Origin: a virus
DNA: 27,885 nt
IMG/VR virus record: IMGVR_UViG_3300034198_009509
Span: 1-27,885 of that record
Direction: 5' to 3' (one strand)
Shown here: positions 1,510 to 21,500 of the stretch, in pieces
Layout: every line of letters starts with the position of its first letter
How positions within the stretch are numbered: position 1 is the first letter of the stretch
Program-made: the position numbers and the translations under genes
Notes under the pieces: generated by a model
The model's database searches: none
What the model was told of the DNA's origin: nothing
What the model saw: the letters and a program-made list of their open reading frames with translations, nothing else

Positions 1510-1512
1510 TCA

Positions 1513-2513: not shown

Positions 2514-2521
2514 ATAGAAAT

Positions 2522-2576: not shown

Positions 2577-2581
2577 CTAAA

Positions 2582-2824: not shown

Positions 2825-2825
2825 A

Positions 2826-2833
2826 TATAAATA
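2826..2833 (+). promoter_or_regulatory. T4-type late promoter octamer (gp25 operon)
   Basis: The site is a perfect TATAAATA, the T4 late -10 element recognised by the phage sigma factor gp55. It lies 22 bases before the ATG of gp25, with transcription expected to begin within about 6 bases of it, leaving a short leader. It opens the gp25-gp6-gp7 structural operon. Confidence 0.8.
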
Positions 2834-2855
2834 AAGCAAGAAAACTTTCTGACCA

Positions 2856-3257: not shown

Positions 3258-3258
3258 A

Positions 3259-5139
3259 ATGCCTTTTACTAAGTTTACTAATCTCGATTTTGATCAGATC
3301 AAGACCTCTATCAAAGATTATCTCCGTGCTAATTCAACTTTCACGGATTTTGACTTTGAGGGGTCTAATTTTTCTGTCTTAATTGATACTCTCGCGTATA
3401 ACACATATATTACAGCATTTAACTCTAATATGGTTGTGAATGAATCCTTTCTGGATTCAGCAACTCTAAGAGAAAATGTTGTTTCACTTGCAAGAAATAT
3501 CGGTTACGTACCACGCTCTAGAGCGTCCTCTAAGGCAACTGTTAGTTTTAACGTACCAACTAGCAGCACATCCTCTACACTGACATTAGACGCTGGTTTA
3601 GTGTGCGTAGGGAGTGCAAATAATAGCGATTATATCTTCTCAATTCCAGAAAGTGTTACAACGACCATCAATGGTGGAGTTGCCACTTTTAGCAATCTTG
3701 AAATTTATCAGGGAACGTTCTTAAGGAAGTCATTTGTTGTTGATGGATCGTTAGACCAGAGATTTATTCTTGATAACTCTTTTATCGATAGTTCAACAAT
3801 TGTTGTTTATGTTAAAGGTCTAAGTGATACTGGGCTTGGGAGAGAATATTCTAAAGTAGACAATATTTTAAATATTAACTCGACATCAGAAATTTATCTC
3901 ATTCAAGAAGTTCAAGATGAAAAGTATGAACTTCTGTTTGGTGATGGATATTTTGGTAAAAAGTTAGATAATGGTGCAATTATTACAGTTACTTACATTG
4001 TAACTGATGGGAAGGATGGAAATGGTGCTTCCAACTTTTCATTCTCTGGTAGATTCTTAGATGCCAATAATGCTGTGGTCATTCCATCTGGATCAATCAC
4101 AGTTAGCACAATCTCTTCTGCCGCAAATGGGTCCGATATTGAGAGTGTAGATTCCATTAAGTACTTTGCTCCACGCATTTACTCTTCACAGTATCGTGCA
4201 GTAACTGCACGTGACTATGAAGCAATCATCCAATCAATCTATCCTAATACAGAATCAGTTGCTGTTGTTGGTGGTGAAGAACTTGATCCACCACAATATG
4301 GAAATGTTCTGATTAGTATTAAACCCAAGAATGGCGACTTTGTTTCAGATTTTGATAAACAGACCATTCTAAGTAAGTTAAAAAATTATTCTCTAACAGG
4401 TATCAACCAACAAATCATAGATCTTAAAGTTCTTTATGTTGAGATTGATTCTGCAATCTACTACAATAATCCTCAAGTTACAAACGTTAATGATCTGAAA
4501 ACTAAAGTTATTTCAACACTGAATACTTTTGCATCATCCAACATTAATAAATTTGGTGGTAGATTTAAATATAGTAAGGTCTGCCAAACCATTGACAATG
4601 TTGATAATGCAATTACTTCCAACATTACCAGAGTCATTATTCGTAGAAACCTCAAGGCATTAATTGATACTCCTGCCCAATATGAATTATGCTTTGGTAA
4701 TGCTTTCCACTATAAACCAGAAGGATTTAATATTAAAAGCACTGGATTCACTCTCCGCGATAGAGTTGAAACATTTTATTTTACTGACACTCCAAAGAGT
4801 GGTGGAATGGGTGATATTTCTGTTGTTAGAGAAAAGAATGATAATGGTGAATATGTAATTGAAATTCAATCTGCAGGAACAGTGAATTATACCACTGGTG
4901 AAATTATAATTAGTACTGCTACCATAACTTCAACAGTCGCAGAAAATAATGTAATTGAAATTCAAGCGTATCCAGAATCTAATGATGTAATTGGATTGAA
5001 AGACTTGTATCTGAGTTTTTCTGTTGCCAAGAGCAAGATAAATATGGTTAAGGATACTATTACGTCAGGCGAACAGATATCCGGAGTCGGATATAAGACT
5101 ACTTCTAGCTACTTAAACGGAGAACTAAAGAGGGTATAA
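3259..5139 (+). CDS. 6: Baseplate wedge protein gp6 (gpJ-like)
   Basis: gp6 forms the inner ring of the baseplate that links the wedges around the hub. At 626 residues it is close to T4 gp6 (about 660). The N-terminus (FTNLDFDQIKTSIKDYLRAN) and the stretch LIDTLAYNTYITAFNSNMVV at ~48-67 are typical of the family. At ~311-345, YRAVTARDYEAIIQSIYPNT followed by a GGEE turn is the hallmark of baseplate J/gp6 proteins. The C-terminal third is beta-rich and more variable. The gene starts one base after gp25 with an AGAGG ribosome binding site at 3242-3246, and stops one base before the giant gp7-like gene. This tight spacing indicates one late operon. Confidence 0.95.
   Translation: MPFTKFTNLDFDQIKTSIKDYLRANSTFTDFDFEGSNFSVLIDTLAYNTYITAFNSNMVVNESFLDSATLRENVVSLARNIGYVPRSRASSKATVSFNVPTSSTSSTLTLDAGLVCVGSANNSDYIFSIPESVTTTINGGVATFSNLEIYQGTFLRKSFVVDGSLDQRFILDNSFIDSSTIVVYVKGLSDTGLGREYSKVDNILNINSTSEIYLIQEVQDEKYELLFGDGYFGKKLDNGAIITVTYIVTDGKDGNGASNFSFSGRFLDANNAVVIPSGSITVSTISSAANGSDIESVDSIKYFAPRIYSSQYRAVTARDYEAIIQSIYPNTESVAVVGGEELDPPQYGNVLISIKPKNGDFVSDFDKQTILSKLKNYSLTGINQQIIDLKVLYVEIDSAIYYNNPQVTNVNDLKTKVISTLNTFASSNINKFGGRFKYSKVCQTIDNVDNAITSNITRVIIRRNLKALIDTPAQYELCFGNAFHYKPEGFNIKSTGFTLRDRVETFYFTDTPKSGGMGDISVVREKNDNGEYVIEIQSAGTVNYTTGEIIISTATITSTVAENNVIEIQAYPESNDVIGLKDLYLSFSVAKSKINMVKDTITSGEQISGVGYKTTSSYLNGELKRV
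5037..5044 (+). promoter_or_regulatory. Weak candidate late octamer inside gp6
   Basis: GATAAATA fits NATAAATA and lies inside the end of gp6, 96 bases before the start of the giant gene. A similar GATAAATA lies 98 bases before the DUF4815 gene. The spacing to the start codon is much longer than at the intergenic sites, so it is only a candidate internal promoter. Confidence 0.2.
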
Positions 5140-5140
5140 G

Positions 5141-8100
5141 ATGATACAGACTGGATTTGAAAGCAGGGTAAAAGTTCAGCAAATAATTGAAAATCAACTA
5201 CCAGAGTTTATACTTTCAGAAAGTCCTAAAGCAGTAGATTTTTTAAAGCAATATTATATTTCACAAGAGTATCAGAGTGGACCATCTGATATTGCTCAGA
5301 ACTTAGACCAATATTTAAAGTTAGATAATCTAACACCAGAAGTAGTTACTGGTGAAACAACCCTCTATTCTGGAATTTCATCAACGACAGATACTGTTCA
5401 AGTTTACTCCACTAAAGGATTCCCTCAAGAGTATGGTCTCTTTCAAATTGAAGGTGAAATTTTTACATACACTGGTATTACAACCAATACGTTCACAGGA
5501 TGTATTCGTGGATTTAGTGGTATCACAACGTATCGGAGTGAACTAAATCCAGAAGAACTTATTTTTAGAGATACTGAAAAGGCATCTCATACTGCAGGAA
5601 CTAAGGTTAAAAATTTAAGTTCTCTTTTCCTTAAAGAGTTTTATAAAAAATTAAAATATACATTTACTCCTGGACTGGAGGATGTTGATTTTGTTGCTAA
5701 TCTTGATGTAAACAACTTCATTAAAGAAGCAAGAAGTTTCTATGAAGCAAAAGGTACAGAAGAATCATTTAAAATTCTTTTCAAAGTTCTTTATGGGGTC
5801 ACTCCAAAAGTTGTAGATCTTGAAAGATTTTTAATTAAACCATCATCTTCAAACTTTTTAAGAAGAGAAATTATAGTTGCTGAAAGAATTTCGGGAGATC
5901 CCAATAAACTAGTTGGTCAAACAATTAAAAAGTCTACCGATGAAACGACACAGGCATCGGTTTCTGAGGTTGAAATCTTTACAAGATCTGGAATTAGCAC
6001 ATATTATAAGATTGGATTATTTGTTGGATTTGATGAAAAAGATTTAATTGAAGGTAATTTCACAATTCAACCAAAAACTAAAGTTATTAATCCAGTTTCT
6101 GTTGGATCTTCAGTCATTACTGTAGATTCTACAATCGGATTTGGTGCAACTGGAACTTTAATTTCTGGAAATAATATCGTAACATATACAAATAAATCTG
6201 TTAACCAGTTTCTTGGATGTTCTGGTGTAACGGAAACGATTAGTACTAAGTCTGATATTAGAACAGATGAAGTTTTCTTTGGATATGAAAATGGAGATAT
6301 TACTAAAAAAGTAGAAATTATTATTACTGGTGTTCTGTCTAACTTTGAACAAATTAACGATATTAAACTATCTACAGAAGGTCAAAAAATATATGTAAAG
6401 AATGTTGGTGAAAAGATTAAAAACCCACAATCCAATAAAACATATAAGGAAATAATTGTAAACTCCTGGATCTATAATACCAGTTCTAGATTTGAGGTAG
6501 ATGATATTTCTGGATCTACCTTTACTCTTAAATCGGAAATTGATAAATCTAATCTTGCAGTTGGAGATAAGGTTGACATTTTACTTGGTAGCACAGAAAA
6601 CATTGCACATTCAAATGCTACAGTAGCATCGATTAATACTAACAATAGTCAAATTACTTTAAATAATCTTACGGGGTTTGTTTACAATTCTTCTTTAGAT
6701 TATTCAATTAGGAGAAAGTTAAACACAGCAACTAGTTCTGGATCTCCATTATTATATGGTAATGATACAACTGTCAGTAATATTCAAAATTTATATAATG
6801 AAAGAGATGAATATGTATACCTTGCTTCCAATTCTTTACCATCATATGATATTACAAAGACAGTAACTAAGGCGATCATAACCTCTGCCTCTGGAGATGC
6901 TTTACAAGGTTATGATGTGAATACGACAAAATATTCAATATTATCTTTCAATAATAGTGTACCATTTATAACTGGTGATGAAGTTTATTATACATTTTCC
7001 TCTACAAAATTATCTGGTCTTGAAGAGGGTGTTTATTATGTAAAGGTATTACCAGAAGACAATAAAATTAAATTATATCAATCTAGATCTTTAATTGAAA
7101 GTGATTCATATGTTGAATTTACTTCAACAAGCTCAGTAGGATCTCATACATTTACTTTATCATCTCAAAGAAGTGGATCAATTTATCCTCAGAAACTTCT
7201 CAAGAAATTTCCACTTTCTCAGAACATTAAAAATGGTAATAACACAAATACAATTCCAGGATCAACTGGAATGCTTGTCAACGGTGTCGAAATCATAAAT
7301 TATAAGTCCAATGATAAAATTTATTATGGTCCTTTAGAAGATGTAAAACTATACAATGGAGGAAAAGATTACGATGTAATTAATCCACCAACCATAGATA
7401 TTGATGATTCTGTAGTCTCTGGTGGAACAACTGCACTAGTTAGACCAGTTGTAAGAGGTTCCCTACAGTCCGTCTTAGTAGATCCACAAGACTTCGATTT
7501 GGCAGATGTTATTTCAGTTACTATTTCTGGAGGAAATGGAACTGGTGCAGTCTTAGAACCAATTTTAGAAACAAGATATAGAGAAGTTGAATTTGATTCA
7601 AGACCACTTGCTTCTGGGGGAGGGGTTGATATAAGTAGTGACACGATTACATTTACATCAAATCATAATTTTAGAAATGGTGATGCTCTCGTCTATAATA
7701 GAAATGGAAATAATCCTCTAGGTCTTTCAACAATTTCTGGAAATGATAACGATCAGGGTTATACTTTAAGTAGTGGATCAGTTTATTATGCTCAAGTTGT
7801 TAATAATTCTACTATCAAACTTTACCAAACTCTAACTGATTATTCTAGTGGAATTAATACATTAGGAGTTACAAACTCAAGTGCTCAGGGCATTCAGAAG
7901 TTTAGAACTTACGAAGGAAAGAAAACTCTTAGATCTATAAAAGTTATCAATCCTGGAAGTGGATATGAGAACAGAAAATTAATTGTCAATCCATCAAATA
8001 TTTCTACAGTTGATGATTCAATTAACTTTGAAAACCACGGGTTCTTTGATGGCGATGTAATTAGTTATTCAACTGAAGGCACAGTAGCGACTGGTCTGTC

Positions 8101-11100
8101 AACATCATTAAGTTATTATGTTCTAAAAGAAAATGATGATAAGTTTAGATTAGCAAGTGCTGGAGTAGCAGCAACAATCACTGATAATTATATCAAGAGA
8201 AAGCATGTAAATATAACTTCTAGTGGATCTGGATATCAAAACTTTGCATATCCAGAGATTACTCTAACCATCAATGCAGAATATGCTGGTGTAACTGGAA
8301 TTATAACAGCTACACCTCTTCTAAGAGGAGAAATTGTCGATCTGTATCTTTATGATGCAGGCACAGGTTATGGATCAACAATTTTAAATTTCCATAAAAA
8401 ACCAAACGTAAAAGTTAAGTCTGGTAAAGATGCAGAAATCAAACCATTTGTTTCTGATGGTAAAGTAATAGGAGCACAAGTAACTAATACTGGCAGTGAA
8501 TATACATCAGCACCAGATTTAACTGTTATTGGTGTTGGATCTGCTGTTGGAGCAAAACTAAGAGCAGTTGTTAGTGGTGGTAAAATTACATCAGTAGTTG
8601 TTCTTAATCAGGGATCTGGATATACATCAGATACAACTGTTAAAATTACATCGGTCGGATCTAATGCTTTTGCAGAGGCATTTGTAAGGGGTCTTACTTT
8701 AAATAATCATTATAGATTTGGTAATGAAATTCTTACTGGAACTACGGAAGGAATTGAATATGGATTAGTTGGATATTCAACCCAAATTGGTCAAACTGCA
8801 TTTGATGATGAAGGTGGGCAGCATTCACCTATCATTGGATGGGCATATGATGGAAATCCTGTTTATGGACCATATGCTTATGCAAATTCAACTGATATTA
8901 ATTCACCTTTAACATTCTTAGAGTCTGGTTATGTTCTTTCAACTTCAGATATTACTGACAGACCATCTGGATTTGCAGCAGGGTTCTTCGTTGAAGATTA
9001 TAAATTTGACAATTCTGGAGATCTTGATCAATATAACGGAAGATTTGCAATCACACCTGATTTTCCTCAAGGCGTATATGCATACTATGCAGGCATTAAA
9101 GTAGATGTAACAACAAATATTCTAGTTGCCAATTTCCCATATTTTATTGGCGATTTTTACAGATCGTTACCTGTAACACAAAACTTAGATCAGGGATTTG
9201 ATTTTAATAGTTCTAATTTAATCAGAAATACTTTTCCATATAAAGTTTCTGATCTTTATTCCAACAATGATTTTATTTGCGAACCTAATGAGATATTACC
9301 ACAAAGTGCAACCATAGAATCTGTAAGTAAAGGATCTGTTACAGATTTTATTATTAATGAAGAGGGTGAAGATTATGCAGTTGGTGATATTGCTTCATTT
9401 GATAATGAAGAAACAAATGGTGGTGGCGTAAGTGCATATGTATATTCAATTACTGGAAAGCAGATTGTAGACTTAGATACTACAGTTGAGACTTATCAAT
9501 CAGCGTCAATTATCTGGAAAAATCCAAATGAAGTTTCTTTACATATTGACCCATATCACACACTTTTAGATAAAGATAGTGTTACCATCTCTGGAGTCTC
9601 TACTTTTATTAAAGGATTAACAGATTTGCATGTCATTGGAGTTTCATCTGAAAAAACTTATCTTATTCAACAGGCATCAAGTAATGTAATATCTGGATAC
9701 GTTGATGACATTTATGTTTCCAGTATTCCAGTAAACCTTTCTGTTGGTTCAACCGTTGCAATTGGAACTGAAACACTTTCTGTTCTCAATTTATTCCCAG
9801 AAAATAAGATTGTAAGAGTTGTTAGGGGGATATCAGGGGCAGCACACACTGCATCTACAGAAGTAACAGAAATTACTGGTAGATTTACAATTCCACTTAA
9901 GACTGCGTACTTCGATTCCAAACTAGATGATAAAGTTTATTTTAATCCACAACAATCTGTTGGAATAGGGCAAACCACAGGAATTGGTGTGTCCGCCAAT
10001 TACGTTCTTGGAGACGTAACAAAGACAATTTCAATACCAACCCAAAGCATTTATCTCCCAAATCATCCATTTAAAACAAATCAAGAAGTAATCTTTAGAA
10101 GAGTATCGGGAACTCAACCAATCTCAGTTTCTAGCACAGAAACAAGCTCAACATTTAATTTACCTCTGAGTGGAAACTCTCAAACTTTATATGTAATCAA
10201 TAAATCAAAAGATTATATTGGATTATGCACACAGGTAGGATTAACAACTAATACTGGTGGTTTATATTTTAGAGCATTCACTCCTAATGGTGATAGCACT
10301 GATTACAAGTATTCACTTGAATCTAATTTCACACAAGCAACAGCAAAAGTTCAAAAGATTAAGTCAACAATTGCAGTATCTACTGATCATGGATTAAGCA
10401 GTGGCGATACTATTCAATTATCTTTAAAATCGGATCAGTCTGTTGGCATCGGAACATCAACTTATATTGTAGTTAAGTATGATTCAAATAATGATAAATT
10501 ACTAATTAATCCAATCGGATTTGGATCAACTGCGGTAAGCACTTCATCTAATGAACTAGAGATTACTTCTCATGGTCTTAAGACTGGTGAAAAGATATTT
10601 TATAACGCTTCAGATTTGATTGTTTCTGGTTTAGAAACTGGTTCATATTATGTTTATAGAATTGATGATAATAGAATTAATCTAACTAATACTCATTATG
10701 ATTCAGTTTCCTCACCACCATCGATTGTAAGTTTTGCGTCTACTGGTGGAGCATCTCAAGAAATCTCTAGAATAAATCCAGAACTAAGAATTGTAAGGGA
10801 TAATGATTTAGTATTTAATGTAGCAGACTCTTCATTAAGTGGTTATAACTTCAAGATATACTATGATGAAAACTTTAACAATGAATTAGTTTCAATAGGG
10901 GCAACTGACGTTTTTAGTGTAGTTGGTGTTGCAACTGTTGGGGTTGCATCAACTGCAAGATTAACCTTAAACTATTCAGATTCTCTCCCATCTAAACTTT
11001 TCTACGCTTTAGAAAAATCTGGGTTTATTGGAACATCAGACACTGAAGTTAAAAATAACTCACAGATAACTTTTATTGATAGTGCATATAATGGTGCTTA

Positions 11101-14100
11101 TACGATATCTGGAATTGGGTCTACAACTTTCCAGATATCTTTAAAAGCGGATCCAGAGTCTCTAGAGTATAATCAAAACACTACTTCACTTCTCAAATAC
11201 TCTACCACATCTTTCAGTGCAAGAGGTGGTGTTGATTTGATGAGAATTACGTCTCCTGGATCAAATTACAAAAAACTTCCAAGATTTGTAAGTATTGCAT
11301 CAACAGAAGGTGCCAATGCTGACATCATTCCAGTTTCTACAACGGTTGGAAGAATAAATGAGGTTGTTATTAATGATCCTGGATTTGATTTTTCAGTTGA
11401 TAGAACTTTAAATCCAGAAGTTTACGTATCTCCCAATCTAACACTAACTAATAGAAACACTATCACAAGTATTGATATTGTTTCTGGTGGTTCTGGATAT
11501 ACAACACCACCAGATTTAATTATCGTCAATCCTGAAACTGGTGAGACGTATGATACTGGTATTCTGGAAGCTACTATCCAAGGATCATCTATTTCTTCAG
11601 TCAATATTATTCAATCACCTAAGGGTCTATCGGAAATTGAAAATACAATTTATGCAATTAATAACACAAATAGTGTTGGTATTAATAGTTGTATTTCATC
11701 ACCTGCAGGTATCATCACTTGTGCCTTGGCAACACCTATTTTAGGATTTACAACTGATGCTTTCCTTGTTGGTGATGAGGTATTTGTAGAAGGAATTCAA
11801 AAACTAGGAACAACAGGTACAGGATTTAATTCTAAAGATTATGATTATCACTTCTTCCCAGTAACGGCATATAGAAATACGAATCCAGCTGAAGTTGAAT
11901 TTGATATTTCAGCATATGCAACAAATGCAGGTATTGCAGTAACAGATCAAAATTCATTTGCATCTCTTGTAAGAAAGGCAAACTATCCAGTATTTGACGT
12001 ATCTCAATCTCCCCTAACCTTTATTATCGGGGAAACGATTTATACCGAAAATAATGGATCTTATACCGAAAGAGATTTAATAGTTACAGAAAATCTCAAT
12101 GATTTATTAAAGGTATATGGAACTTATGATTTAAAAGAAAATGATGTAATTTTAGGAAAAGATTCTGGAACTATAGCAACTATTAAATCAGTTGAGGAGA
12201 ATAGAGCAATATTTAAAGTTGACTATTCCTTAAGAACAGATATTGGTTGGTCATCAGACATTGGAAAACTTGATGAAGATTATCAAGTTACACCAGATAA
12301 TGACTACTATCAAAATCTATCTTATACAATCAAGAGTCCAATAGAATATGAAGAATTAGTCAATTCTGTAAATAGACTTGTTCATACAACTGGTCTTAAG
12401 AACTTTGCAGATACAGGAATTACCAGTACAAGTTCAGTTTCAGTTGCTACCACAGGTTCAACTTCAGTTGCACTTATAGACATTATTAGTAAAAATCGAG
12501 TAGACACAATTAATAACTTTGACTTTGGTATTGATGTTGATGTAACTTCCAATAAGTCTAAGTTTATAAAGTTAAGGAACAAAAAATTATCCGATTACAT
12601 TAATTGTATTACAAATAGAGTTCTTAGCATTGATGATATTAGTCTACAATTTTCTAATCAAGAGGATAGTAACATATATGATGACATTGATCAATATGAT
12701 CTTAATGATGGTTATTCAAGATACTTAGTTCAGATAATAGGTACTAATGATTCACAAAGACAATCAACTGAAATTATAACTTTACCATCAGTTTCTGGAG
12801 ATATAATTACTTTTGAGAAGGGTACAATTTACAATGGAGAAAGTAAAATCGGTGAAGTTTCTGCATATCTTTCGGATACTGATGTTCTTTCTTTAAGATT
12901 TACACCAGAAGATGTTTTTAATTATGATTATGATATTAAAGTAATTAAAAATAATTTTAATAGTACTCTGGCAGGAATCAACACTCAATCTGTAGGATTT
13001 ATTGATTTAATTGGATCCAACATTATTGTTGGTGTAGGATCTACTTCTAGCATTGTAGAAAAACAGATCTCTTCAACAGAATCATTATTTGCAAATATTG
13101 AAGTTGTAAATCCAACAACATCTGAAAGAACATATGTTGAATTATATGTTAATCACGATAATACAAATACATACATAACAGAATATTACTTCGATAATGA
13201 TGCAAATTCTGAAATCTCTGATAGATTCATTGGCACTTTTAGTGCAAATATAAGTTCTGGCATCCTTTCACTAAAATTTGAAAATACTGAAAGCGATTCC
13301 ATCTTGGTCAGATCAAAGGTTGTTGGATTTGGAACTACCGCATCTGGAATAGGAACTTATAGATTTAAAGCGTCTGGTCAACCAGATGGATCAGAAAACT
13401 CAGCAAGACTGCAAAGTAATTATTCAGTCTCCTCTGGTGTATCAACTATTATCTCAGTTAATAAAGATAATGTTACTACGATAAAATCTATTGCAAAAGT
13501 TGGATACGGGAATACATCAGCACTTCATCAACTCTTAACAGTTCATGATAATACTGATGTCTACACGATGCAATATCCTTTCCTTTCTATTGGAAGCACA
13601 ACTGGAATTGGTACATTTGGATCTGAGTATAGCGGATCGAACTTAGTACTTAAGTTTTATCCAGATTCTGGAATTTCTAATAATATTACAGTTCAAACAT
13701 ACAGTGAAATTATTCAAACCGAACTAGATTCTTTAAATATTGCAGAGCAACTTTCATATGGATCAGTCACGGAAGAGTTAGTATTGTCTCTTTATAATTC
13801 TATTAATGGAGATAGAGTTAATAAAACAAACTTTAATTTAAACTATGCAGGAACTCCGATATTTGAAAAAACATTTAATCCATCAAACTCTAGTATTTTA
13901 AACTTGAGCACTGGTACATTTACTATTACTGATCATTTCTTTAACACAGGCGAAAGACTAATTTATGAACCCGGATCAACGTTTGCTGGTGTAGCAGCAA
14001 CATCAATAGAGACTTCGGGAGGTGTTGGTCTTTCTACTGAAGTTTATGCGATTAGAATTAATTCTAATGAATTTCAACTTGCTTCAACTAGAGCGAATGC

Positions 14101-16999
14101 TATTTCTGGAACAGAGTTAACATTTACATCATATGGAGGTGGAAATGCCCATACTCTTGAGATGTATAAAAAAATGGAAAAATCTATCATTTCCATCGAT
14201 GGTATTGTTCAAAGTCCACTTGCATTTACTCCTATAAATTACAGCTTAACCAATAATGGTGGGCAAATAGGAGCAGCTACAACTTTCTTTGCAATATCTG
14301 GCATATCTTCTATTTTACCAAATGATATTTTAAAGATTGATAATGAATTTTTGAAGGTAAATTCTGTTGGATTGGGTACAACTTCAGTTGGACCAATTAC
14401 TGGAACTGGATCTTTTAATATTATTGAATCAACTAGAGGATTTGTTGGATCGTCAGCAACATCTCATACTGATGGCACTGAAGTTAGAGTTTATCTTGGT
14501 GCATTTAACATTGTAGGTAGCAAAGCGTATTTTACTGAAGCTCCAAGAGGAAATACCGCTGAACTTGTTGATGATAGTAATATTGCACACGTCAGATCTT
14601 CATTTGGTGGTAGAGTTTATCTCAGACAGGACTACTCTACAAACCAAATTTACGATAACATTTCCAAGTCATTCACTGGTATTGGTAAAACTTACACTTT
14701 AACTGTTCAGGGAATCAATACAACTGGTATAGAAACTGGTAGTGGTGTTCTGTTTATCAATAACGTTTTCCAAACACCATCTACACTTAATAATATTGGA
14801 AATAACTATAGTTTTACCACAAATACTGGCATCTCCAGTGTTGTATTTGCTGGCATAACATCTACCAATAATGAATTAATAATTTCAGATTATGATGTAA
14901 ATACCAATCAATTACCAAGAGGTGGAATTATTGTTTCACTTGGTTCAACTTCTGGATTAGGATTTGCTCCTCTCGTTGGAGCAGCAGTAACTGCAGTTGT
15001 ATCTGGTGGTGTTATCACTTCAGTTGGATTGGGAACTACAGATATTGTTGGATCTGGGTATCGTGGTGTTGTTTCTATTGGTGTTACTGACTCCAGTCAT
15101 ACTGGAACTGCGGCCAATATTACCGCTACAGTTGGAGCTGGAGGTACGTTAACGTTTAATGTAGTTTCTGGTGGAACTGGATATGTCAATCCACGCATTC
15201 TTGTTTCAGAACCAAATTATGAAAATCTTTCAGTGATTGGAGTTTCTAGACTTGGAATTGGAACGACAACTGCAACAGGGACAGGTTTACTTGTAAGTCT
15301 AGATGTAGGCGCCAGTTCCACAACTGGAATTGGATCCACACTATTTGAAGTAAAATCATTCAAGATTTCTAGACCAGGATATGGATTTAGAGTAGGTGAT
15401 GTTCTTAAACCAGTTGGATTGGTAACAGGTAGAAATCTTGCAGCACCTTTAGCAGATTTTGAACTAACAGTCTTGGATACCTTCTCCGATTCATTCTCTG
15501 CTTGGCAGTTTGGTGAATTAGATTTCATTGATTCTGTTGAAAATTTACAAAATGGAGCAAGAACTCGTTTCCCACTTTATTATAATGGTCAATTATTGAG
15601 TTTTGAAACTGATGCATCATCTGAAATCGATTTGAATACGGTTCTTCTGGTATTTGTAAATGGCGTTATTCAAGAACCTGGAGTACATTATCAGTTTGAA
15701 GGTGGTACATCATTTACATTTACAAGTGCACCAACAACAAATGATAATATCTCCATTTTCTTCTATAGAGGAACACGTGGAACGGATAGTGCTTCAGTAA
15801 ACATAAATGAAACTATAAAAGTTGGTGACGGTGTACAACTACAAAAGAATGCAGATGTTGTTGCACAAACTGAGAGAACAATTTACAACATCACTGCCTC
15901 AGATAAAATTGAAACTAACATTTATAGTGGTCTGGGTATTAGTGAAACTTCTTATAGACCATTCAATTGGATTAAACAAAAAGTTGACAAAAATCTTGGT
16001 GGGGAAGATGTTTATAAGACTAGAGATTCTATCGAATCACTAGTATATCCAACTGCTAAAATTATTGGTAACCTATCATCAGTTGATTCTGAGGTATTTG
16101 TTGATAGCGCACAATTCTTTAACTATGAAGAAAATGAATCTGCTATTGTTATTTCAAACGTTGATGCTATCATTGTCAATGGATCTACAGATCCAGTTGC
16201 TGCAGCAATTACGGCAACTGTTTCTGTGGCGGGTACAATAAGTGCGTTGACCATCTCTAGTGGTGGTTCTGGATACACTGGTTCTAATGTAACAGTTAAA
16301 ATCTCCGCACCACAAACAATTGGTGTTGGGGTAGGTACAACCGCAACTGCAACACTACCAGTAGTAAATGGTTCTCTGAGTGGAACTGCAAATATCACAA
16401 ATCCTGGATTTGGATATACTCATTCTAAACCCCCACAGGTTTTAGTGCCAACCACTAATGTCTCTTACGAAAATATTTTAGATATTACTTCAGTTCAAGG
16501 AACAACTGGTATCATAACAGGTATAACTACAAGCACTGGAAGCGGATCACATCCCCTTGCTCTTAAGTTCTTCCTGAATGCAATATCTTTTACTGGGTTA
16601 ACAAATGGATATCCAATTTATGTTTATGATACGGTTGTTGGATCTGGAGTAACATCGGTAAATGGATCCAATTCTTCCAAAGTTGGTGTTGGTACTACGT
16701 TTGCTGACAATGTTTATATTGTTAGAAACTTTACAGCAGTTAATGCAACTAATGCATCATTTACTGCGGATATCCTTTCAACAACTAGTGTGGTTGGATT
16801 GGCAACAACTGGATCAACTACAAATATTTGTGGAAGGTTCTCTTGGGGTAGATTATCAGGATTTACTAGGTCTTCATCTCCAATTTCCATAGGTGTAACT
16901 GGTCTCACAATTGATTCTGGATTATCAACATTCCCATCTATCCAGAGAAGAGGATATGGATTGAGAGACACAGGTGCTCTTAGAAAGGATCTTGGGTAG
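5141..16999 (+). CDS. 7: Giant gp7-like baseplate wedge protein with repeat modules (3952 aa)
   Basis: Position between gp6 and gp8 is that of T4 gene 7, and the N-terminal ~330 residues look like gp7. VDFLKQYYISQEYQSG lies at ~32-47. NFIKEARSFYEAKGTEESFK at ~191-210, continuing into ILFKVLYG, parallels the gp7 segment with KG-E-S-K-LFKVLY as I recall it. LVGQTIKKST follows. T4 gp7 has about 1,030 residues; this protein has 3952 in one unbroken frame. The rest is beta-rich repeats: six or more H-x-G-D...YYV modules (~605-2984), at least ten GxGY modules (~935-3760), an EI-Y-RG membrane-free module (~72-140, ~3060-3115), NGVxQxP modules (~3017, ~3203, ~3501) and a YHYH-like region (~1200-1345). 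The C-terminus (TFPSIQRRGYGLRDTGALRK) looks conserved in cyanophages. An AGAGGG site precedes the ATG. gp7 homology is confident at the N-terminus only; the repeats probably project from the baseplate. Confidence 0.85.
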   Translation: MIQTGFESRVKVQQIIENQLPEFILSESPKAVDFLKQYYISQEYQSGPSDIAQNLDQYLKLDNLTPEVVTGETTLYSGISSTTDTVQVYSTKGFPQEYGLFQIEGEIFTYTGITTNTFTGCIRGFSGITTYRSELNPEELIFRDTEKASHTAGTKVKNLSSLFLKEFYKKLKYTFTPGLEDVDFVANLDVNNFIKEARSFYEAKGTEESFKILFKVLYGVTPKVVDLERFLIKPSSSNFLRREIIVAERISGDPNKLVGQTIKKSTDETTQASVSEVEIFTRSGISTYYKIGLFVGFDEKDLIEGNFTIQPKTKVINPVSVGSSVITVDSTIGFGATGTLISGNNIVTYTNKSVNQFLGCSGVTETISTKSDIRTDEVFFGYENGDITKKVEIIITGVLSNFEQINDIKLSTEGQKIYVKNVGEKIKNPQSNKTYKEIIVNSWIYNTSSRFEVDDISGSTFTLKSEIDKSNLAVGDKVDILLGSTENIAHSNATVASINTNNSQITLNNLTGFVYNSSLDYSIRRKLNTATSSGSPLLYGNDTTVSNIQNLYNERDEYVYLASNSLPSYDITKTVTKAIITSASGDALQGYDVNTTKYSILSFNNSVPFITGDEVYYTFSSTKLSGLEEGVYYVKVLPEDNKIKLYQSRSLIESDSYVEFTSTSSVGSHTFTLSSQRSGSIYPQKLLKKFPLSQNIKNGNNTNTIPGSTGMLVNGVEIINYKSNDKIYYGPLEDVKLYNGGKDYDVINPPTIDIDDSVVSGGTTALVRPVVRGSLQSVLVDPQDFDLADVISVTISGGNGTGAVLEPILETRYREVEFDSRPLASGGGVDISSDTITFTSNHNFRNGDALVYNRNGNNPLGLSTISGNDNDQGYTLSSGSVYYAQVVNNSTIKLYQTLTDYSSGINTLGVTNSSAQGIQKFRTYEGKKTLRSIKVINPGSGYENRKLIVNPSNISTVDDSINFENHGFFDGDVISYSTEGTVATGLSTSLSYYVLKENDDKFRLASAGVAATITDNYIKRKHVNITSSGSGYQNFAYPEITLTINAEYAGVTGIITATPLLRGEIVDLYLYDAGTGYGSTILNFHKKPNVKVKSGKDAEIKPFVSDGKVIGAQVTNTGSEYTSAPDLTVIGVGSAVGAKLRAVVSGGKITSVVVLNQGSGYTSDTTVKITSVGSNAFAEAFVRGLTLNNHYRFGNEILTGTTEGIEYGLVGYSTQIGQTAFDDEGGQHSPIIGWAYDGNPVYGPYAYANSTDINSPLTFLESGYVLSTSDITDRPSGFAAGFFVEDYKFDNSGDLDQYNGRFAITPDFPQGVYAYYAGIKVDVTTNILVANFPYFIGDFYRSLPVTQNLDQGFDFNSSNLIRNTFPYKVSDLYSNNDFICEPNEILPQSATIESVSKGSVTDFIINEEGEDYAVGDIASFDNEETNGGGVSAYVYSITGKQIVDLDTTVETYQSASIIWKNPNEVSLHIDPYHTLLDKDSVTISGVSTFIKGLTDLHVIGVSSEKTYLIQQASSNVISGYVDDIYVSSIPVNLSVGSTVAIGTETLSVLNLFPENKIVRVVRGISGAAHTASTEVTEITGRFTIPLKTAYFDSKLDDKVYFNPQQSVGIGQTTGIGVSANYVLGDVTKTISIPTQSIYLPNHPFKTNQEVIFRRVSGTQPISVSSTETSSTFNLPLSGNSQTLYVINKSKDYIGLCTQVGLTTNTGGLYFRAFTPNGDSTDYKYSLESNFTQATAKVQKIKSTIAVSTDHGLSSGDTIQLSLKSDQSVGIGTSTYIVVKYDSNNDKLLINPIGFGSTAVSTSSNELEITSHGLKTGEKIFYNASDLIVSGLETGSYYVYRIDDNRINLTNTHYDSVSSPPSIVSFASTGGASQEISRINPELRIVRDNDLVFNVADSSLSGYNFKIYYDENFNNELVSIGATDVFSVVGVATVGVASTARLTLNYSDSLPSKLFYALEKSGFIGTSDTEVKNNSQITFIDSAYNGAYTISGIGSTTFQISLKADPESLEYNQNTTSLLKYSTTSFSARGGVDLMRITSPGSNYKKLPRFVSIASTEGANADIIPVSTTVGRINEVVINDPGFDFSVDRTLNPEVYVSPNLTLTNRNTITSIDIVSGGSGYTTPPDLIIVNPETGETYDTGILEATIQGSSISSVNIIQSPKGLSEIENTIYAINNTNSVGINSCISSPAGIITCALATPILGFTTDAFLVGDEVFVEGIQKLGTTGTGFNSKDYDYHFFPVTAYRNTNPAEVEFDISAYATNAGIAVTDQNSFASLVRKANYPVFDVSQSPLTFIIGETIYTENNGSYTERDLIVTENLNDLLKVYGTYDLKENDVILGKDSGTIATIKSVEENRAIFKVDYSLRTDIGWSSDIGKLDEDYQVTPDNDYYQNLSYTIKSPIEYEELVNSVNRLVHTTGLKNFADTGITSTSSVSVATTGSTSVALIDIISKNRVDTINNFDFGIDVDVTSNKSKFIKLRNKKLSDYINCITNRVLSIDDISLQFSNQEDSNIYDDIDQYDLNDGYSRYLVQIIGTNDSQRQSTEIITLPSVSGDIITFEKGTIYNGESKIGEVSAYLSDTDVLSLRFTPEDVFNYDYDIKVIKNNFNSTLAGINTQSVGFIDLIGSNIIVGVGSTSSIVEKQISSTESLFANIEVVNPTTSERTYVELYVNHDNTNTYITEYYFDNDANSEISDRFIGTFSANISSGILSLKFENTESDSILVRSKVVGFGTTASGIGTYRFKASGQPDGSENSARLQSNYSVSSGVSTIISVNKDNVTTIKSIAKVGYGNTSALHQLLTVHDNTDVYTMQYPFLSIGSTTGIGTFGSEYSGSNLVLKFYPDSGISNNITVQTYSEIIQTELDSLNIAEQLSYGSVTEELVLSLYNSINGDRVNKTNFNLNYAGTPIFEKTFNPSNSSILNLSTGTFTITDHFFNTGERLIYEPGSTFAGVAATSIETSGGVGLSTEVYAIRINSNEFQLASTRANAISGTELTFTSYGGGNAHTLEMYKKMEKSIISIDGIVQSPLAFTPINYSLTNNGGQIGAATTFFAISGISSILPNDILKIDNEFLKVNSVGLGTTSVGPITGTGSFNIIESTRGFVGSSATSHTDGTEVRVYLGAFNIVGSKAYFTEAPRGNTAELVDDSNIAHVRSSFGGRVYLRQDYSTNQIYDNISKSFTGIGKTYTLTVQGINTTGIETGSGVLFINNVFQTPSTLNNIGNNYSFTTNTGISSVVFAGITSTNNELIISDYDVNTNQLPRGGIIVSLGSTSGLGFAPLVGAAVTAVVSGGVITSVGLGTTDIVGSGYRGVVSIGVTDSSHTGTAANITATVGAGGTLTFNVVSGGTGYVNPRILVSEPNYENLSVIGVSRLGIGTTTATGTGLLVSLDVGASSTTGIGSTLFEVKSFKISRPGYGFRVGDVLKPVGLVTGRNLAAPLADFELTVLDTFSDSFSAWQFGELDFIDSVENLQNGARTRFPLYYNGQLLSFETDASSEIDLNTVLLVFVNGVIQEPGVHYQFEGGTSFTFTSAPTTNDNISIFFYRGTRGTDSASVNINETIKVGDGVQLQKNADVVAQTERTIYNITASDKIETNIYSGLGISETSYRPFNWIKQKVDKNLGGEDVYKTRDSIESLVYPTAKIIGNLSSVDSEVFVDSAQFFNYEENESAIVISNVDAIIVNGSTDPVAAAITATVSVAGTISALTISSGGSGYTGSNVTVKISAPQTIGVGVGTTATATLPVVNGSLSGTANITNPGFGYTHSKPPQVLVPTTNVSYENILDITSVQGTTGIITGITTSTGSGSHPLALKFFLNAISFTGLTNGYPIYVYDTVVGSGVTSVNGSNSSKVGVGTTFADNVYIVRNFTAVNATNASFTADILSTTSVVGLATTGSTTNICGRFSWGRLSGFTRSSSPISIGVTGLTIDSGLSTFPSIQRRGYGLRDTGALRKDLG
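5354..5600 (+). repeat. Protein module copy: sheet plus RG-G turn (giant gp7)
   Basis: Residues ~72-150 of the giant protein read as a module: VQVYSTKGFPQEYGLFQIEG, then EIFTYTG, then GCIRGFSG, then HTAGTKV. A close relative appears at ~3060-3115 of the same protein (DILKIDNEFLKV then ESTRGFVGSSATSHTDGTEV), a partial one at ~1525-1585 (VRVVRGISGAAHTASTEV), and one in the DUF4815 protein (LKVNNEIIYYNS then GIGTRGVDGSFKRTHNIGDK). The shared order is: small loop, I-x-x-E-hydrophobic strand, Y, RG-x-G turn, H-x-G-T/D. Confidence 0.55.
6955..14091 (+). repeat. H-x-tGd...YYV protein repeats in giant gp7
   Basis: At least six copies of one module are visible. Their rough nucleotide positions are 6955-7095 (FITGDEVYYTFS), 7647-7832 (NHNFRNGDALVYN), 8020-8160 (NHGFFDGDVISYS), 10379-10516 (DHGLSSGDTIQLS), 10561-10692 (SHGLKTGEKIFYN) and 13924-14091 (DHFFNTGERLIYE). 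Each begins with a histidine or equivalent and a GD/GE turn, then a Y strand, a glycine-rich loop (often GL-x-G/ST), a YYV or YAI strand and an x-L-x-T/S ending such as IKLYQS, FRLAS or INLTNT. Copies are diverged in sequence, so they are old repeats held by structure rather than recent duplications. Confidence 0.65.
7930..16440 (+). repeat. GxGY protein repeats in giant gp7
   Basis: Ten copies of a short strand-turn-strand motif are seen: VINPGSGYENR (~7940), ITSSGSGYQNF (~8215), LYDAGTGYGST (~8345), VTNTGSEYTSAPDL (~8480), VLNQGSGYTSD (~8602), ITSPGSNYKKLP (~11247), IVSGGSGYTTPPDL (~11479), VVSGGTGYVNP (~15163), ISSGGSGYTGS (~16255) and ITNPGFGYTHSKPP (~16393). The consensus is hydrophobic-x-hydrophobic, N/S-x-G-S-G-Y, then often P-P and a hydrophobic strand. 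Many are preceded by VSGGKI or VNGS-like strands. The same motif occurs in gp8 and in the DUF4815 protein. Confidence 0.7.
8740..9175 (+). other. YHYH-like domain inside giant gp7
   Basis: Residues ~1200-1345 differ from the flanking repeats. They read HSPIIGWAYDGNPVYGPYAY (from ~1228), then a variable stretch, then DRPSGFAAGFFVEDYKF, LDQYNGRFAITPDFPQGVYA (~1296-1314) and FPYFIGDFY. This order (GxxxDGxPxYGPY, LDxxNG, TPDFP-x-G-x-Y-x-Y, FPY) matches the YHYH protein family as I know it. The name-giving YHYH is YAYY here (1313-1316), so histidines of the motif are absent. The role of this family is not established; a structural or ligand-binding insert is the likeliest reading. Confidence 0.6.
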
Positions 17000-17025: not shown

Positions 17026-18573
17026 ATGGCGGCAATTGTAACCGATCAATTTAGAATATTAAACGCGGGGAATTTTGTTGACTCTGTTTCTAATACCTCT
17101 AACTCATATTACGTATTTGTAGGTCTCTCAAATCCAACGGAATCTGGATTTGGTAGAGATACTGATTGGGATACTGACACCCCAAATCCTACTGACAGCA
17201 TTGATTATGCCAATTTTATTGGTGACAATATGTTGTTTGGCAAAAAAGTCACCTCCGCAAACGTAAAAAGACTTGTTAGAAGAATTGATTGGGCGAGAGG
17301 GACAAAGTATGAAATGTATCGCCATGACTATAGTCTAACTAACTTGTCACCAATTACGAGTTCATCACGTCTTTATGATACCAATTATTATGTGATGAAT
17401 AGTGAATATAAAGTTTATATTTGCATCGATAATGGATCATCTGGCATTTCGACTACAGGAAATGCTTCATTAGATGAACCAACATTTACAGATTTAGAAC
17501 CATCTGCTGCTGGAGTAAGTGGGGATGGATATGTTTGGAAATATCTTTTTACAGTTTCTCCAAGTGATATTATTAAATTTGATTCTACTGAATATATTAC
17601 ACTACCTAGTGATTGGGCAACAACAACCAATTCTCAAATAACTGCCGTTAGAGATAATGGTAATTCTGATGTAAATGAAAATCAGATAAAAAAAGTTTAC
17701 ATTAGTAATCAAGGTGAGGGATATTCGAATGGTGTTGGACGAGAATTAAACATTATTGGAGATGGTACTGGCGGAAAAGTTATTGTTGATGTTGTTAGTG
17801 GAAAGATAACTAATGCGGTGGTTTCTTCTGGCGGAAAAAATTATACTTATGCAATGGTTGATCTTGGATCAATCAATGCAAGTTCATCAACTAAGGCAAA
17901 GTTAATACCAATTATACCACCATCTAAAGGTCATGGATATGACATTTACCGTGAACTAGGTGCTGACAGAGTTTTAGTTTATGCAAGATTTGATGATTCC
18001 ACTAAGGATTTCCCATCAGATACTAGTTTTTCACAAATTGGTATTGTAAAAAATCCATCTTCTATTGGATCAACCAACGTATTCATTGAAAATCAATTTT
18101 CATCTCTTGGTGCTATTAAGTTTTCTTCAATAAGTGGAACTGTAAATGCTGGAGATACTATATTTCAGACTGTGACTGGTGGAACTGCAAAGGGATATGT
18201 AGCATCATATGATGTTGAGACAAAGGTTATTAAGTATTTTCAAGATAGATCTCTTTTCCTAAATCAAACTACATTTGATAGTACAGACTATGTTGGAGTT
18301 TCAACAAACTCTAAAGTATTAGATTTTGTATCTAGTGCTAATGCAGTAACTAGCAATGGTGGATTTTCTGGATCAATAGATACCGGATTTACTGGAATCA
18401 CAACTAATCCAACCGGAAATAAAATTATCTCACTCGGAACACAATTCACAAATGGGGTTGCTAATCCTGAGATAAATAAAGGGTCAGGAGATATAATTTA
18501 TATCGACAATAGACCTGAAATATCTAGAAATTCTAGACAAAAAGAAGACGTTAAAATCATCCTGGAATTTTAA
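17026..18573 (+). CDS. 8: Baseplate wedge protein gp8
   Basis: gp8 is a wedge component that bridges gp6/gp7 to the outer baseplate. The 515-residue product is longer than T4 gp8 (about 334). Conserved points are VTDQFRILNAGNFVDS at the N-terminus, PTDSIDYAN and RRIDWARGTKYEMYRHD (~85-101), GDGYVWKYLFTVSPSDIIKF at ~166-185 followed by EYITLP, and the extreme C-terminus IIYIDNRPEISRN plus a KEDVKIILEF ending, which parallels the T4 IYMENRPP...INILFTF ending as I recall it. The extra length is mostly an insert after ~residue 215 that holds GEGYSNG- and GGKNYTY-type repeats like those of its giant neighbour. It starts 18 bases after a late octamer and ends 3 bases before the next gene. Confidence 0.93.
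   Translation: MAAIVTDQFRILNAGNFVDSVSNTSNSYYVFVGLSNPTESGFGRDTDWDTDTPNPTDSIDYANFIGDNMLFGKKVTSANVKRLVRRIDWARGTKYEMYRHDYSLTNLSPITSSSRLYDTNYYVMNSEYKVYICIDNGSSGISTTGNASLDEPTFTDLEPSAAGVSGDGYVWKYLFTVSPSDIIKFDSTEYITLPSDWATTTNSQITAVRDNGNSDVNENQIKKVYISNQGEGYSNGVGRELNIIGDGTGGKVIVDVVSGKITNAVVSSGGKNYTYAMVDLGSINASSSTKAKLIPIIPPSKGHGYDIYRELGADRVLVYARFDDSTKDFPSDTSFSQIGIVKNPSSIGSTNVFIENQFSSLGAIKFSSISGTVNAGDTIFQTVTGGTAKGYVASYDVETKVIKYFQDRSLFLNQTTFDSTDYVGVSTNSKVLDFVSSANAVTSNGGFSGSIDTGFTGITTNPTGNKIISLGTQFTNGVANPEINKGSGDIIYIDNRPEISRNSRQKEDVKIILEF
17690..17870 (+). repeat. GxGY repeats inserted in gp8
   Basis: Residues ~222-280 of gp8 read KKVYISNQGEGYSNG, then a GDGTGGKVIVDVVSGKITNA strand pair, then VVSSGGKNYTYAMVDL. 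This is the same glycine-tyrosine module that recurs in the giant gp7-like protein, and it has no counterpart that I know in T4 gp8. Confidence 0.6.
18471..18478 (+). promoter_or_regulatory. Weak candidate late octamer inside gp8
   Basis: GATAAATA fits NATAAATA and lies in the last part of gp8, 98 bases before the DUF4815 gene. It mirrors the GATAAATA inside gp6. Both lie in coding sequence, so chance is a real possibility. Confidence 0.2.
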
Positions 18574-18576: not shown

Positions 18577-21500
18577 ATGCCACAGAAAACGAATCTTAAT
18601 ATAAATCCTTATTACGACGACTTTGATAAGGATAAGAATTTTTATAGAGTCTTATTCAAGCCAGGATACCCAGTTCAAGCAAGAGAATTAACTACTCTAC
18701 AATCTATCCTACAAAATCAGGTAGAGTCGTTCGGTAGTCATATCTTTAAAGAGGGATCAATGGTGATCCCTGGAAATTTAAATTATGATCCAGCATACTA
18801 TTCTGTAAGGTTAAATGCAGATTACCTAGGTATTGACTTATCAGTTTATGTTGATAAGTTGGTAGGAAAGCGTTTAACAGGTCAGACATCTGGAATAGTC
18901 GCTGTAGTAGATAAGTATCTAGAAAAATCAATATCTGAGGGTATTACGGACCTTACTTTATTCGTAAAATATTTACAATCTGGCGATAATAATGAGATTT
19001 CTCAATTCACCGATGGTGAAATCTTAATTACTGAAGAATCTTTCACCTATGGAAATACTACAGTTAACGCTGGTGATACAGTGGCAACTCTTGTATCAGA
19101 AGATGCCACAGCAGTTGGCACCTCTGTAGGAATTGGTGCCGGTGTGTACTTCATTAGGGGAACATTTGTAGATGTATCTCAAGATAAAATTGTATTAGAT
19201 GCATATACAAACGATTCTTCATATAGAGTTGGATTAAATATTCTAGAAGAAATTGTTACGGCAAAGGATGATAATACGTTATATGATAATGCAAAGGGAT
19301 TTTCAAATTATGCTGCACCTGGAGCAGATAGATTAAAAATCAGTGCATCATTATCAAAAAAATCATTAACAGATTTTAATGATAAGACATTTATAGAATT
19401 AATCAGAATTGAAAATGGAGAAATTAAAAAACTTCAAAATAAAACTCAATATAATTATATCAGAGACTACTTTGCTGAAAGAACTTATGATGAATCTGGA
19501 GACTATTCTGTAAATCAGTTTGGAATTGAAGTAAAAGAGTCTTTAAATGATAGACAATCAAATGATGGAATTTATTTTCCAGGACAATCTACTCAACAGC
19601 AAGCAACTCCATCAGAAGATTTAATGGGAGTTGCTATTTCCCCAGGAAAAGCATATGTTAGGGGATATGACATTGAATCAACTCAAACTACAATTATAGA
19701 TGTTGAAAAACCAAGAGATAAAGAATCTGTATCTCCTGCGTTAGTTCCATTTGAATTTGGAACCCTCATGAGGGTTAATAATGTTTCAGGTACACCATTT
19801 ATTGGAATTGATAACAATACAAATATAGTCAATCTTTATAATCGAAGAAAGAGTTCTATATCTGCTGGAACTGGATCTATTATTGGAAAAGCTAGAATTT
19901 ATTCATTCAATTTAACTGATGCATCATACACAAATCCTTCAACAGAATGGGATCTATACCTATTTGATGTTCAAACTTACACTGTACTAACAGTCAATGA
20001 GTCACTATCATCAGTTACTTGTCCAGCAACGTCCTTTGTTAGAGGTGTAAGTAGTGGTGCTACAGGATATGCTGCAGAAAATCCAGCAGGAACTACTTTA
20101 ACTCTTATTCAAACTTCAGGAACATTTATATCTGGAGAGCAACTTTTAATTAATGAAACTACAGAAGTTTCTAGATCAGTTGTAACTGCTACTGCATATG
20201 GAATTGGGGATGTAAAATCAGTATATCAAGATTCTACAGCATTAACTTCAGAATTAAAGGTTGATTTTGTTGCAGATACTGTTCTGCAAAAATCTTTACC
20301 AAATAATTTTAGTCTGACTGATAGACTTACGATTACCTCTGGTGGAACTGCAACCTGCCCAGGACGTAATTTTGCAGCAACTGGAATTAAAGAAAATTCA
20401 ATCATCAGATATCAGATTTCAGGTTTATCTACAGAGACTTACAATAGAGTTTCTGCAGTTTCTAATGATGGTCTCACATTAACATTAGTAGGCATTAGTA
20501 GTGTTTATGGAGTTTGTAATGGTGGTTTACCAACATCAACTCAATCAGTTACATTTTCAGTTGGTAATCCATTAGTTAGAGACGCTGGTGGATTATATGC
20601 AAAAATTTCTTCAGATAATGTTGCTTCAGTTGATCTTGCAGATTCAACTTTGTTAGTTAATAGTCAAATAACAGAACAAACTACAAATGGTTCTGGAGCA
20701 ATGACTTTGAATGTTTCAGCAACTGGAATATCTAGTGCTTTCTTCGAATCTTTTGACGCTGAAAGATATTCGGTATTCTACTCAGATGGAAGCATTGAAA
20801 ATCTAACTTCAGATCAGTTTACACTTTCTTCCAGTGAATCTCAAATTACACTTTCGGGATTAACTGCAAGTCAAACATCTAATGTAACAGTTAATACAAC
20901 TGTTAGAAAAAATGGAATTAAAGAAAAGCAAAAAGATTATACTAGAAGTGAAAAACTAATAGTCAATAAAACAATTTCTGGAGTTTCAACTTCACTCAGT
21001 GGTTTATCGACTAGTGTATATTATGGTACTAGAATTCAAGATAAAGAAATTTCTTTAAATTTACCAGACGTTGTAAAAGTTTTAGCAGTATACGAATCTT
21101 ATAATTCTTCATCACCAACACTCGACTCTTTACAATTTCCTTCAGGTCTAAGTTTGAATACATCATCAATTTTAGGAGAAAAAATTATAGGTAGGGATAG
21201 TGGAGCACTTGCACAAATCGTTACTAGATCTTCCTCCACTGTAGTTGAGATTGTTTATTTAAATTCAAATACGTTTATTGTTGGAGAAATTGCTGAATTC
21301 CAAGAATCTAATATTAAATCGACAATTCAGACTATCACATCTGGTAACTATCAAAACGTTACAAATCAGTATACCTTAGATAAAGGTCAAAAAGAACAAT
21401 ATTATGATTATTCTAGAATTGTAAGAAAGAGTGATTCATATGTACCAACATATCAGTTATTGGTAATATTTGATTACTATGATGTTCCATCTAATGATCT

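Follow-up and report, generated by a model that had tools for sequence, protein, structure and literature searches.

A giant gp7 from a T4-like cyanophage, with a core apparently split in two by inserted modules and a probable role in the outer baseplate

T4-like cyanophages and pelagiphages occur abundantly in the sea. The IMG/VR virus record IMGVR_UViG_3300034198_009509 (27,885 nt, the whole of which is referred to below as the window) comes from a T4-like phage of cyanophage type, and 11,859 of its bases (42.5%) are taken up by one gene located at positions 5141-16999 of the + strand. This gene is a single open frame with an ATG start and no internal stop and encodes 3,952 amino acids (aa), i.e. 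3.8 times T4 gp7 (1,032 aa), in agreement with the initial annotation, which described a single gene covering 43% of the window and an almost four-fold gp7. It is the gp7 of the baseplate wedge and an ordinary member of the known giant cyanophage gp7 family (phrog_2885). The joint reading favoured here, to which a probability of ca. 0.78 is assigned, is that of a gp7 with a split core, in which modules have been inserted and to which others have been appended, and which probably builds the outer baseplate.

That the gene is a gp7 enlarged by added modules, as initially annotated, is borne out by its family, by synteny and by profile and structure matches. The product matches phrog_2885 ("baseplate wedge subunit") with an expectation value (E) of 0, the best stretch corresponding to aa 2-3296 on positions 2-3326 of the 4179 of the profile. 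The gene occurs directly between gp6 (3259-5139) and gp8 (17026-18573), as does gp7 in T4-type phages, within the tail gene order gp25-gp6-gp7-gp8-VrlC. Giant proteins had been said to be known at this locus in T4-like cyanophages, and orthologues are indeed found at the equivalent place in P-SSM2 (5,195 aa), S-SRM01 (3,895 aa) and ACG-2014f (4,225 aa).

Plain phmmer searches of the PDB with the whole protein or its N-terminus found no gp7, and only a family profile succeeded; with T4 gp7 as the query, 1,432 records match and no cyanophage is among the ten most frequent names. The N-terminal profile comprised 83 sequences, namely the window together with 82 relatives retained out of 295 after clustering at 85% identity. 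When compared to all PDB chains (E up to 10), it detected just two distinct sequences, both of T4-type gp7 (E 1.5e-4 and 7.7e-4, on gp7 aa 730-814), and a scan of the whole T4 genome gave one match, at gp7 codons 729-758 (E 9.4e-7). Profile-profile comparison with a five-sequence gp7 alignment pointed to T4 gp7 702-812 (E 1.3e-7), and hhalign scores of 53.6 on the T4 gp7 sequence and 69.8 on the five-sequence alignment were obtained, while none of 11 other T4 tail proteins exceeded 21.1 and none of 30 gp7 shuffles exceeded 23.0. The core part of the profile (about 160-297) was found at a single locus, the gene behind gp6, in each of 15 complete phage genomes, and the extra places detected in some of them match module C parts of the profile only (about 66-143 or 307-367). 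The core piece of T4-type gp7 with its FYxxKG(T/I)xxS helix and following beta domain is present in the window protein. The T4-specific domains that precede the core (T4 aa 1-640) were not found in the window gp7, where the core begins as early as aa 11; they belong to the T4 lineage rather than to the core family, and the gp7 of phage Ps15 (see below) is too short for them.

The N-terminal region of ~330 residues that had been proposed as gp7-like is so, but it aligns with T4 gp7 702-814, in the C-terminal third, and not with the T4 N-terminus. The proposal that modules were simply appended behind this region does not hold: sequence comparisons indicate a core in two collinear pieces, the first at about aa 11-300 plus 383-397 and the second at aa 2380-2440, with most of the added mass lying inside (aa 398-2395) or behind piece 2. 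The repeats in the ~3,600 aa described as repeated beta modules are real, but this stretch also holds core piece 2 (2380-2440) and a YHYH domain (1130-1327). The parts of the gene are as follows.

5141..16999, + strand: giant gp7, 3,952 aa, whole open reading frame (ORF); ORF with translation, phrog_2885 E 0
5171..5320, + strand: core piece 1a, N-terminal helices (aa 11-60); aligns with the Ps15 gp7 N-terminus, helices in the predicted model at low predicted local distance difference test (pLDDT)
5348..5614, + strand: module C1, inserted beta-barrel (aa 70-158); module profile, no match in T4, Ps15 or phiN3 gp7, gap in the Ps15 alignment
5618..6040, + strand: core piece 1b (aa 160-300), comprising the FYxxKGTxxS helices and the first part of the beta domain; matched to T4 gp7 702-814 by hmmsearch and hhalign, VIA-align
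6056..6286, + strand: module C2, inserted beta-barrel (aa 306-382); second copy of module C
6332..12325, + strand: large insertion between the core pieces (aa 398-2395); the equivalent points of T4 (840 and 863-865) are ~23 residues apart
7964..8263, + strand: module B, with the reference copy at aa 942-1041 and others at aa 584-675, 812-911, 1724-1793 and 1789-1877
8402..8656, + strand: module A, "GSGY" type, two units (aa 1088-1172); further copies at aa 2101-2131, 3312-3356 and 3676-3764, phrog_460 match at 1104-1179
8528..9121, + strand: YHYH domain without the upstream HxH (aa 1130-1327, Pfam limits; overlaps module A); PF14240 E 6e-26
12278..12460, + strand: core piece 2 (aa 2380-2440), element of the YYQxxSYxIxS...HPAG type; motif and profile comparison
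12461..16996, + strand: C-terminal extension (aa 2441-3952) with an insertion hotspot near aa 3300-3335; shorter gp7 end soon after piece 2

T4 gp7 (5iv5, 5hx2) matches window aa 185-296 and 2396-2429 with its residues 702-814 and 863-898, respectively, and both genes are located between gp6 and gp8. T4 gp7 has ca. 640 residues before the core and ~23 between the pieces, whereas the window protein has almost none before, ca. 2,000 between and ca. 1,500 behind them. The second core element, which carries HP(A/V)G and follows the first collinearly, is also found in the window, where it reads HTTG. Its YYQxxSYxIxS...HPAG motif is located at position 2415 in the window, 884 in T4, 425 of 503 in Ps15, 975 of 1,006 in phiN3, 1356 of 1,454 in S-CRM01, 1855 of 3,048 in S-PM2 and 3610 of 6,817 in ACG-2014d. 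A piece 2 profile, based on an alignment built without T4, Ps15 and phiN3 and run with hhalign in local mode, scored 32.7 on the T4 gp7 sequence and 36.4 on the gp7 alignment (aa 863-896), with controls reaching at most 20.3 for 11 other T4 proteins and at most 18.0 for 30 shuffles. The same piece matched Ps15 gp7 (E 2.6e-9) and phiN3 gp7 (E 5.4e-10), the order of the pieces being conserved. Independent support for a split core comes from PF23786, which is matched in two parts that are adjacent in the Pfam model and far apart in gp7: profile positions 153-230 and 231-276 lie 520 residues apart in HTVC008M, and positions 176-221 and 235-280 lie ca. 2,840 residues apart in ACG-2014d. In 11 other genomes one of the two parts was detected in gp7 (E up to 1). 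Both core pieces also occur in S-CREM2 gp122 (1,937 aa; E 1e-36 and 2e-14), for which Table 3 of PMC10665884 reports 91 unique peptides in virions.

The predicted model of aa 1-560 (mean pLDDT 69.9) also supports gp7, VIA-align superposing aa 238-397 on T4 gp7 763-840 (78 aligned, root-mean-square deviation 2.3, Z 8.4). Several observations weigh against the favoured reading. A Z of this size can be reached by chance, and module C attains higher values on unrelated proteins (10.2 for C1 on a capsid protein). Foldseek with the whole model returned unrelated chains first, with T4-type gp7 at ranks 13 and 18 (E 0.02-0.06), and confidence is low for the N-terminal helices of the model (pLDDT about 31-63). 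Piece 2 has a modest direct match to T4, with an hhalign probability of 24-60% that varies with the alignments used, the case resting on Ps15, phiN3 and the order of the pieces, and piece 2 of P-HM1 was not found by tblastn, though its motif is there. Both PF23786 parts occur together in only two of 15 genomes, and neither T4 gp7 nor ACG-2014f has a match at E 1; the family exceeds its cut-off in two of the 15 genomes and gives off-gp7 matches once in S-SRM01 (E 0.037) and in one control genome. As for module C2, it apparently lies inside the gp7 beta domain of the model, since 78 T4 residues align over a 160-residue model span, its exact place being estimated from the end points.

The gp7 of the Stenotrophomonas phage Ps15, with only 503 aa, shares with the window both core pieces, GSGY modules between them and a downstream VrlC, but differs in having neither a C1/C2 match nor a C-terminal extension and is too short for a YHYH domain, none having been searched for. 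It bridges the T4-type and cyanophage gp7 families: both of its pieces match cyanophage gp7, a weak match (E 8e-3) links it to about residues 641-757 of the gp7 of EC-W2 (Straboviridae), and its residues 9-118 align with T4 gp7 644-760 (E 2.5e-5). The presence of both pieces in so short a gp7 suggests that T4 and cyanophages decorated one small core in different places. The lengths of gp7 are 503, 1,006, 1,016, 1,032 (T4), 1,454, 1,937, 3,048, 3,494, 3,895, 3,952 (window), 4,225, 4,314, 4,446, 5,195 and 6,817 aa in the phages compared. Growth is located between the pieces and, in larger forms, also behind piece 2, which is followed by 28-78 residues in S-CREM2, phiN3 and Ps15, 148 in T4 and ca. 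1,500 in the window; ACG-2014d has ca. 500 additional residues in front of the KGT motif. P-SSM2 PSSM2_111, a giant gp7 of Kyanoviridae, shares the gene order, the core, C1/C2, the A and B strings and the C-terminal extension with the window, and its greater length (5,195 aa versus 3,952) includes ca. 1,070 extra aa at the hotspot, near window aa 3330. The window gp7 displays 43-50% identity to P-SSM2 and S-SRM01. In S-SKS1, gp7 (L003:20001-32384) occurs as four open stretches in different frames and looks interrupted in that record.

The gp7 gene is widespread in this phage group. A tblastn search with the first 500 aa matched 462 of 50,697 phage records, which by name correspond to 372 Synechococcus, 61 Cyanophage, 24 Prochlorococcus and 5 Marine phages, and 548 of 586 candidate stretches in IMG/VR encode relatives, the best 80 of which were kept. 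The last 1,012 aa matched 101 of the same records (58 of them over at least 80%), so that the extension is conserved in fewer records than the core. In four of five relatives, aa 1-300 (module C1 included) and 2380-2440 have 52-67% identity and the inserts 36-51%, with gp6 at 60-66% and gp8 at 56-61%; P-HM1, the most distant of the five, has 37% over aa 1-300 and 29% over part of the length of the insert. When 32 close relatives are compared, the added parts prove collinear, mean identity being 48-73% per 100-aa window over aa 401-3800 and 48-81% in every such window over aa 1-3800, the range covered since the loci of the relatives end before aa 3801-3952, and no hypervariable tip was seen. 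Long gp7-like proteins with 31-44% identity over most of the query were also found in contigs (L326-L332) filed under flavobacterial, archaeal, gammaproteobacterial and planctomycete metagenome-assembled genomes (MAGs), which are probably phage contigs in these bins.

The modules were detected with profiles built from homologous columns of relatives (E up to 0.05), which gave zero matches on 20 shuffles of the window gp7. This protein has two copies of module C, five of module B (six with a second B profile) and six of module A (three with the other A profile). Module C profiles match at least twice in each of 10 cyanophage gp7 examined (C1 only in parts in ACG-2014d) and have no match in T4, Ps15 or phiN3 gp7. 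Module A is also found in Ps15, in phiN3 and in gp8 and may therefore be the oldest one. In VIA-align, module B resembles domains of E1 enzymes and of phage endosialidases (Z about 6-8). No DNA tandem repeats were reported within the gp7 gene, so that only the protein sequence reveals the repeats. A single copy of module C is present at aa 1935-2016 of the VrlC-type protein of the window.

In T4, gp7 is a monomer, with six per tail, that contacts gp6, gp8, gp9 and gp10 (PMC3004832). Proteins presumed, by way of T4 gp7, to occupy the equivalent wedge place as partners of a gp6-type dimer hold separate fibre or adaptor proteins and have no module strings. These are XM1 gp17 (242 aa), which holds the spikes through a loop and its C-terminus (PMC10457771), TssG (about 366 aa), in which two loops hold TssK trimers (PMC6300606), and A-1(L) gp32 (at least 151 aa), in which a C-terminal loop helps hold the long fibre (PMC10966104). 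The growth points of the window gp7 are loops of this same core and its C-terminus, and these loops may be the very ones used for holding in the simpler systems. In the mechanism proposed, one gp7 would associate with two gp6 copies in the (gp6)2-gp7 wedge unit, its two core pieces would pack together as in T4, joining the gp6 core bundle and the trifurcation unit, and the long inserts would leave this unit as covalently attached arms that, together with VrlC, would make up the outer baseplate and anchor the tail fibres, tasks for which T4 has the separate proteins gp9, gp10 and gp11. The most likely role of the gp7 modules is that of an outer baseplate substituting for T4 gp9-gp11. The fuller proposal, that cyanophages build it by covalent gp7 extension, with the holding loops and C-terminus of simpler contractile systems grown into module strings that reach several thousand residues, six per virion, and with VrlC also replacing gp9, gp10 and gp11, is put forward tentatively and at somewhat less than even odds. 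PF07880 (gp9/gp10) was detected in one and GP11 in none of the 14 non-T4 genomes of the set and both in T4, a scarcity expected if gp7 and VrlC took over, although these misses may reflect the sensitivity of the Pfam models, which makes them weak evidence. In ACG-2014d, which has the largest gp7 here (6,817 aa), three extra genes occur between gp7 and gp8 (L089:25783-32232), one of them with a gp9/gp10 N-terminal domain.

The initial annotation had suggested a projecting fibre or a shell around the baseplate. The shell is compatible with the data, whereas the fibre is less likely given the collinearity of the 32 relatives, the absence of a hypervariable tip and the variable fibre candidate located downstream (26648-27883). 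A related alternative would make the giant protein chiefly a host-binding fibre or adhesin with a borrowed gp7-like anchor, its modules recognising the cell surface. It draws on a concanavalin-like Laminin_G_3 domain in the C-terminal extension of ACG-2014d (63.8 bits, cut-off 27.6), on a weak CBM_5_12 match in P-HM1 that stays below its cut-off (22.8 bits versus 26.2), on the resemblance of module B to a phage endosialidase domain and of module C to a tailspike domain, and on the narrower distribution of the last 1,012 aa when compared to the first 500, a point that also counts in favour of the projecting fibre. The window gp7 itself has no lectin or carbohydrate-binding module match at E 0.01, its relatives have no hypervariable stretch over aa 1-3800, and the downstream fibre-like gene is much more variable: this ORF matched 7 of the 50,697 phage records, none over 80% of its length and most at the first ~100 residues only, and three of the seven are annotated "tail fiber-like protein". 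The adhesin is thus considered unlikely, and the ORF, which is open-ended and has no PHROG match at E 0.001, is a candidate host-range gene.

A role of gp7 as a tail-associated zinc hydrolase that opens the cell wall by means of its YHYH domain is less probable still. This function was predicted in PMC7824862 from three histidines and one aspartate, two of these histidines presumably being the HxH pair, which was taken as the source of the YHYH family name. The PF14240 match is strong (E 6e-26; 92 bits versus a curated cut-off of 25), H1228 and D1237 are kept in the alignment with 64 cellular copies, and gp7 copies share the HSP...DGxPIYG...LDxxNGRxxxTPE(F/Y)P core with cellular YHYH proteins. 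They differ from these in that the HxH pair upstream of H1228 is missing: it was found in 57 of 60 anchored cellular copies but in none of 69 anchored phage copies (80 phage copies in all, 11 without anchor, cellular and phage-like copies being assigned by locus rank), nor in any of 15 phage-like sequences of MAG contigs. The lack of the histidine pair of their cellular relatives makes a zinc-enzyme role unlikely for the gp7 copies, and the domain is most likely structural or glycan-contacting. A C-terminal "YAYF" was considered as the YHYH motif and rejected after alignment with cellular copies. No solved relative of this stretch was found by profile at E 10 and Foldseek of the YHYH model gave no match below E 0.03; the VIA-align rows of this model fall almost wholly on module B.

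A third alternative, that gp7 is absent, with VrlC in its place and the giant gene being an unrelated structural protein, follows PMC7029224, in which the baseplate is the structural region differing most from T4 in cyano- and pelagimyophages and T4 gp7 is stated to be absent and apparently replaced by VrlC; although plain sequence searches do not find T4 gp7, this is very improbable since four annotated VrlC proteins (HTVC008M, Ps15, phiN3 and P-HM1, the four tested) match neither core piece, Ps15 and phiN3 carry a short gp7 as well as VrlC, and HTVC008M gp055, located between gp6 and gp8, has both pieces. HTVC008M is the cultured reference of that study, and its gp055 (L408:13436-16486; E 4.6e-20 and 8.8e-14 for the two gp7 pieces, 1e-38 for phrog_2885) contradicts the claim of a missing gp7. 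It bears the label "head closure Hc2", which its family phrog_3465 has too; shared GSGY modules may be the reason. Three HTVC008M ORFs labelled "baseplate wedge initiator" (gp059, gp062 and gp064; gp063, labelled alike, was outside the test) have no gp7 core. The matches of the profile in VrlC of P-HM1 (E 0.022, the strongest among the annotated VrlC proteins) and of the window (E 1.8e-4) lie on its module C1 part. P-HM1 has a second gene annotated as gp7, PHM1_095 (L087:29325-34001), whose first 1,558 residues contain neither core piece.

The neighbouring genes of the window are given below.

2856..3257, + strand: gp25 (sheath initiator); PF04965 E 2.9e-12
3259..5139, + strand: gp6; PF21379 E 3.4e-18, phrog_219
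17026..18573, + strand: gp8, carrying module A (GSGY) at aa 213-280; PF09215 E 7.4e-16
18577..25635, + strand: VrlC-type protein (DUF4815), 2,352 aa; PF16075, phrog_358, position as for the annotated VrlC of P-HM1, phiN3 and HTVC008M

Like gp7, gp8 is enlarged, with 515 aa versus 334 in T4. Ahead of the baseplate genes, positions 1513-2151 encode a protein matching phrog_3704 ("ferredoxin"), and a gene annotated as ferredoxin likewise occurs ahead of gp25 in S-SKS1 and ACG-2014i.

A literature search, which left subscription journals mostly aside and hence does not prove absence, returned no description of a split core in gp7 or of a gp7 structure from T4-like cyanophages. Three points deduced from sequence were not found in print, namely the division of the core and the sites at which it has grown, the mislabelled gp7 of HTVC008M and the change at the histidine site in the YHYH domain. 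Covalent extension of gp7, if true, would represent a baseplate plan undescribed in the literature searched. The proposed split core would show where gp7 starts, stops and grows, would explain wrong database names, with a true gp7 designated as "head closure Hc2" and fibre-like genes as "baseplate wedge initiator", and predicts that aa 160-400 and 2380-2440 of gp7 form one domain.

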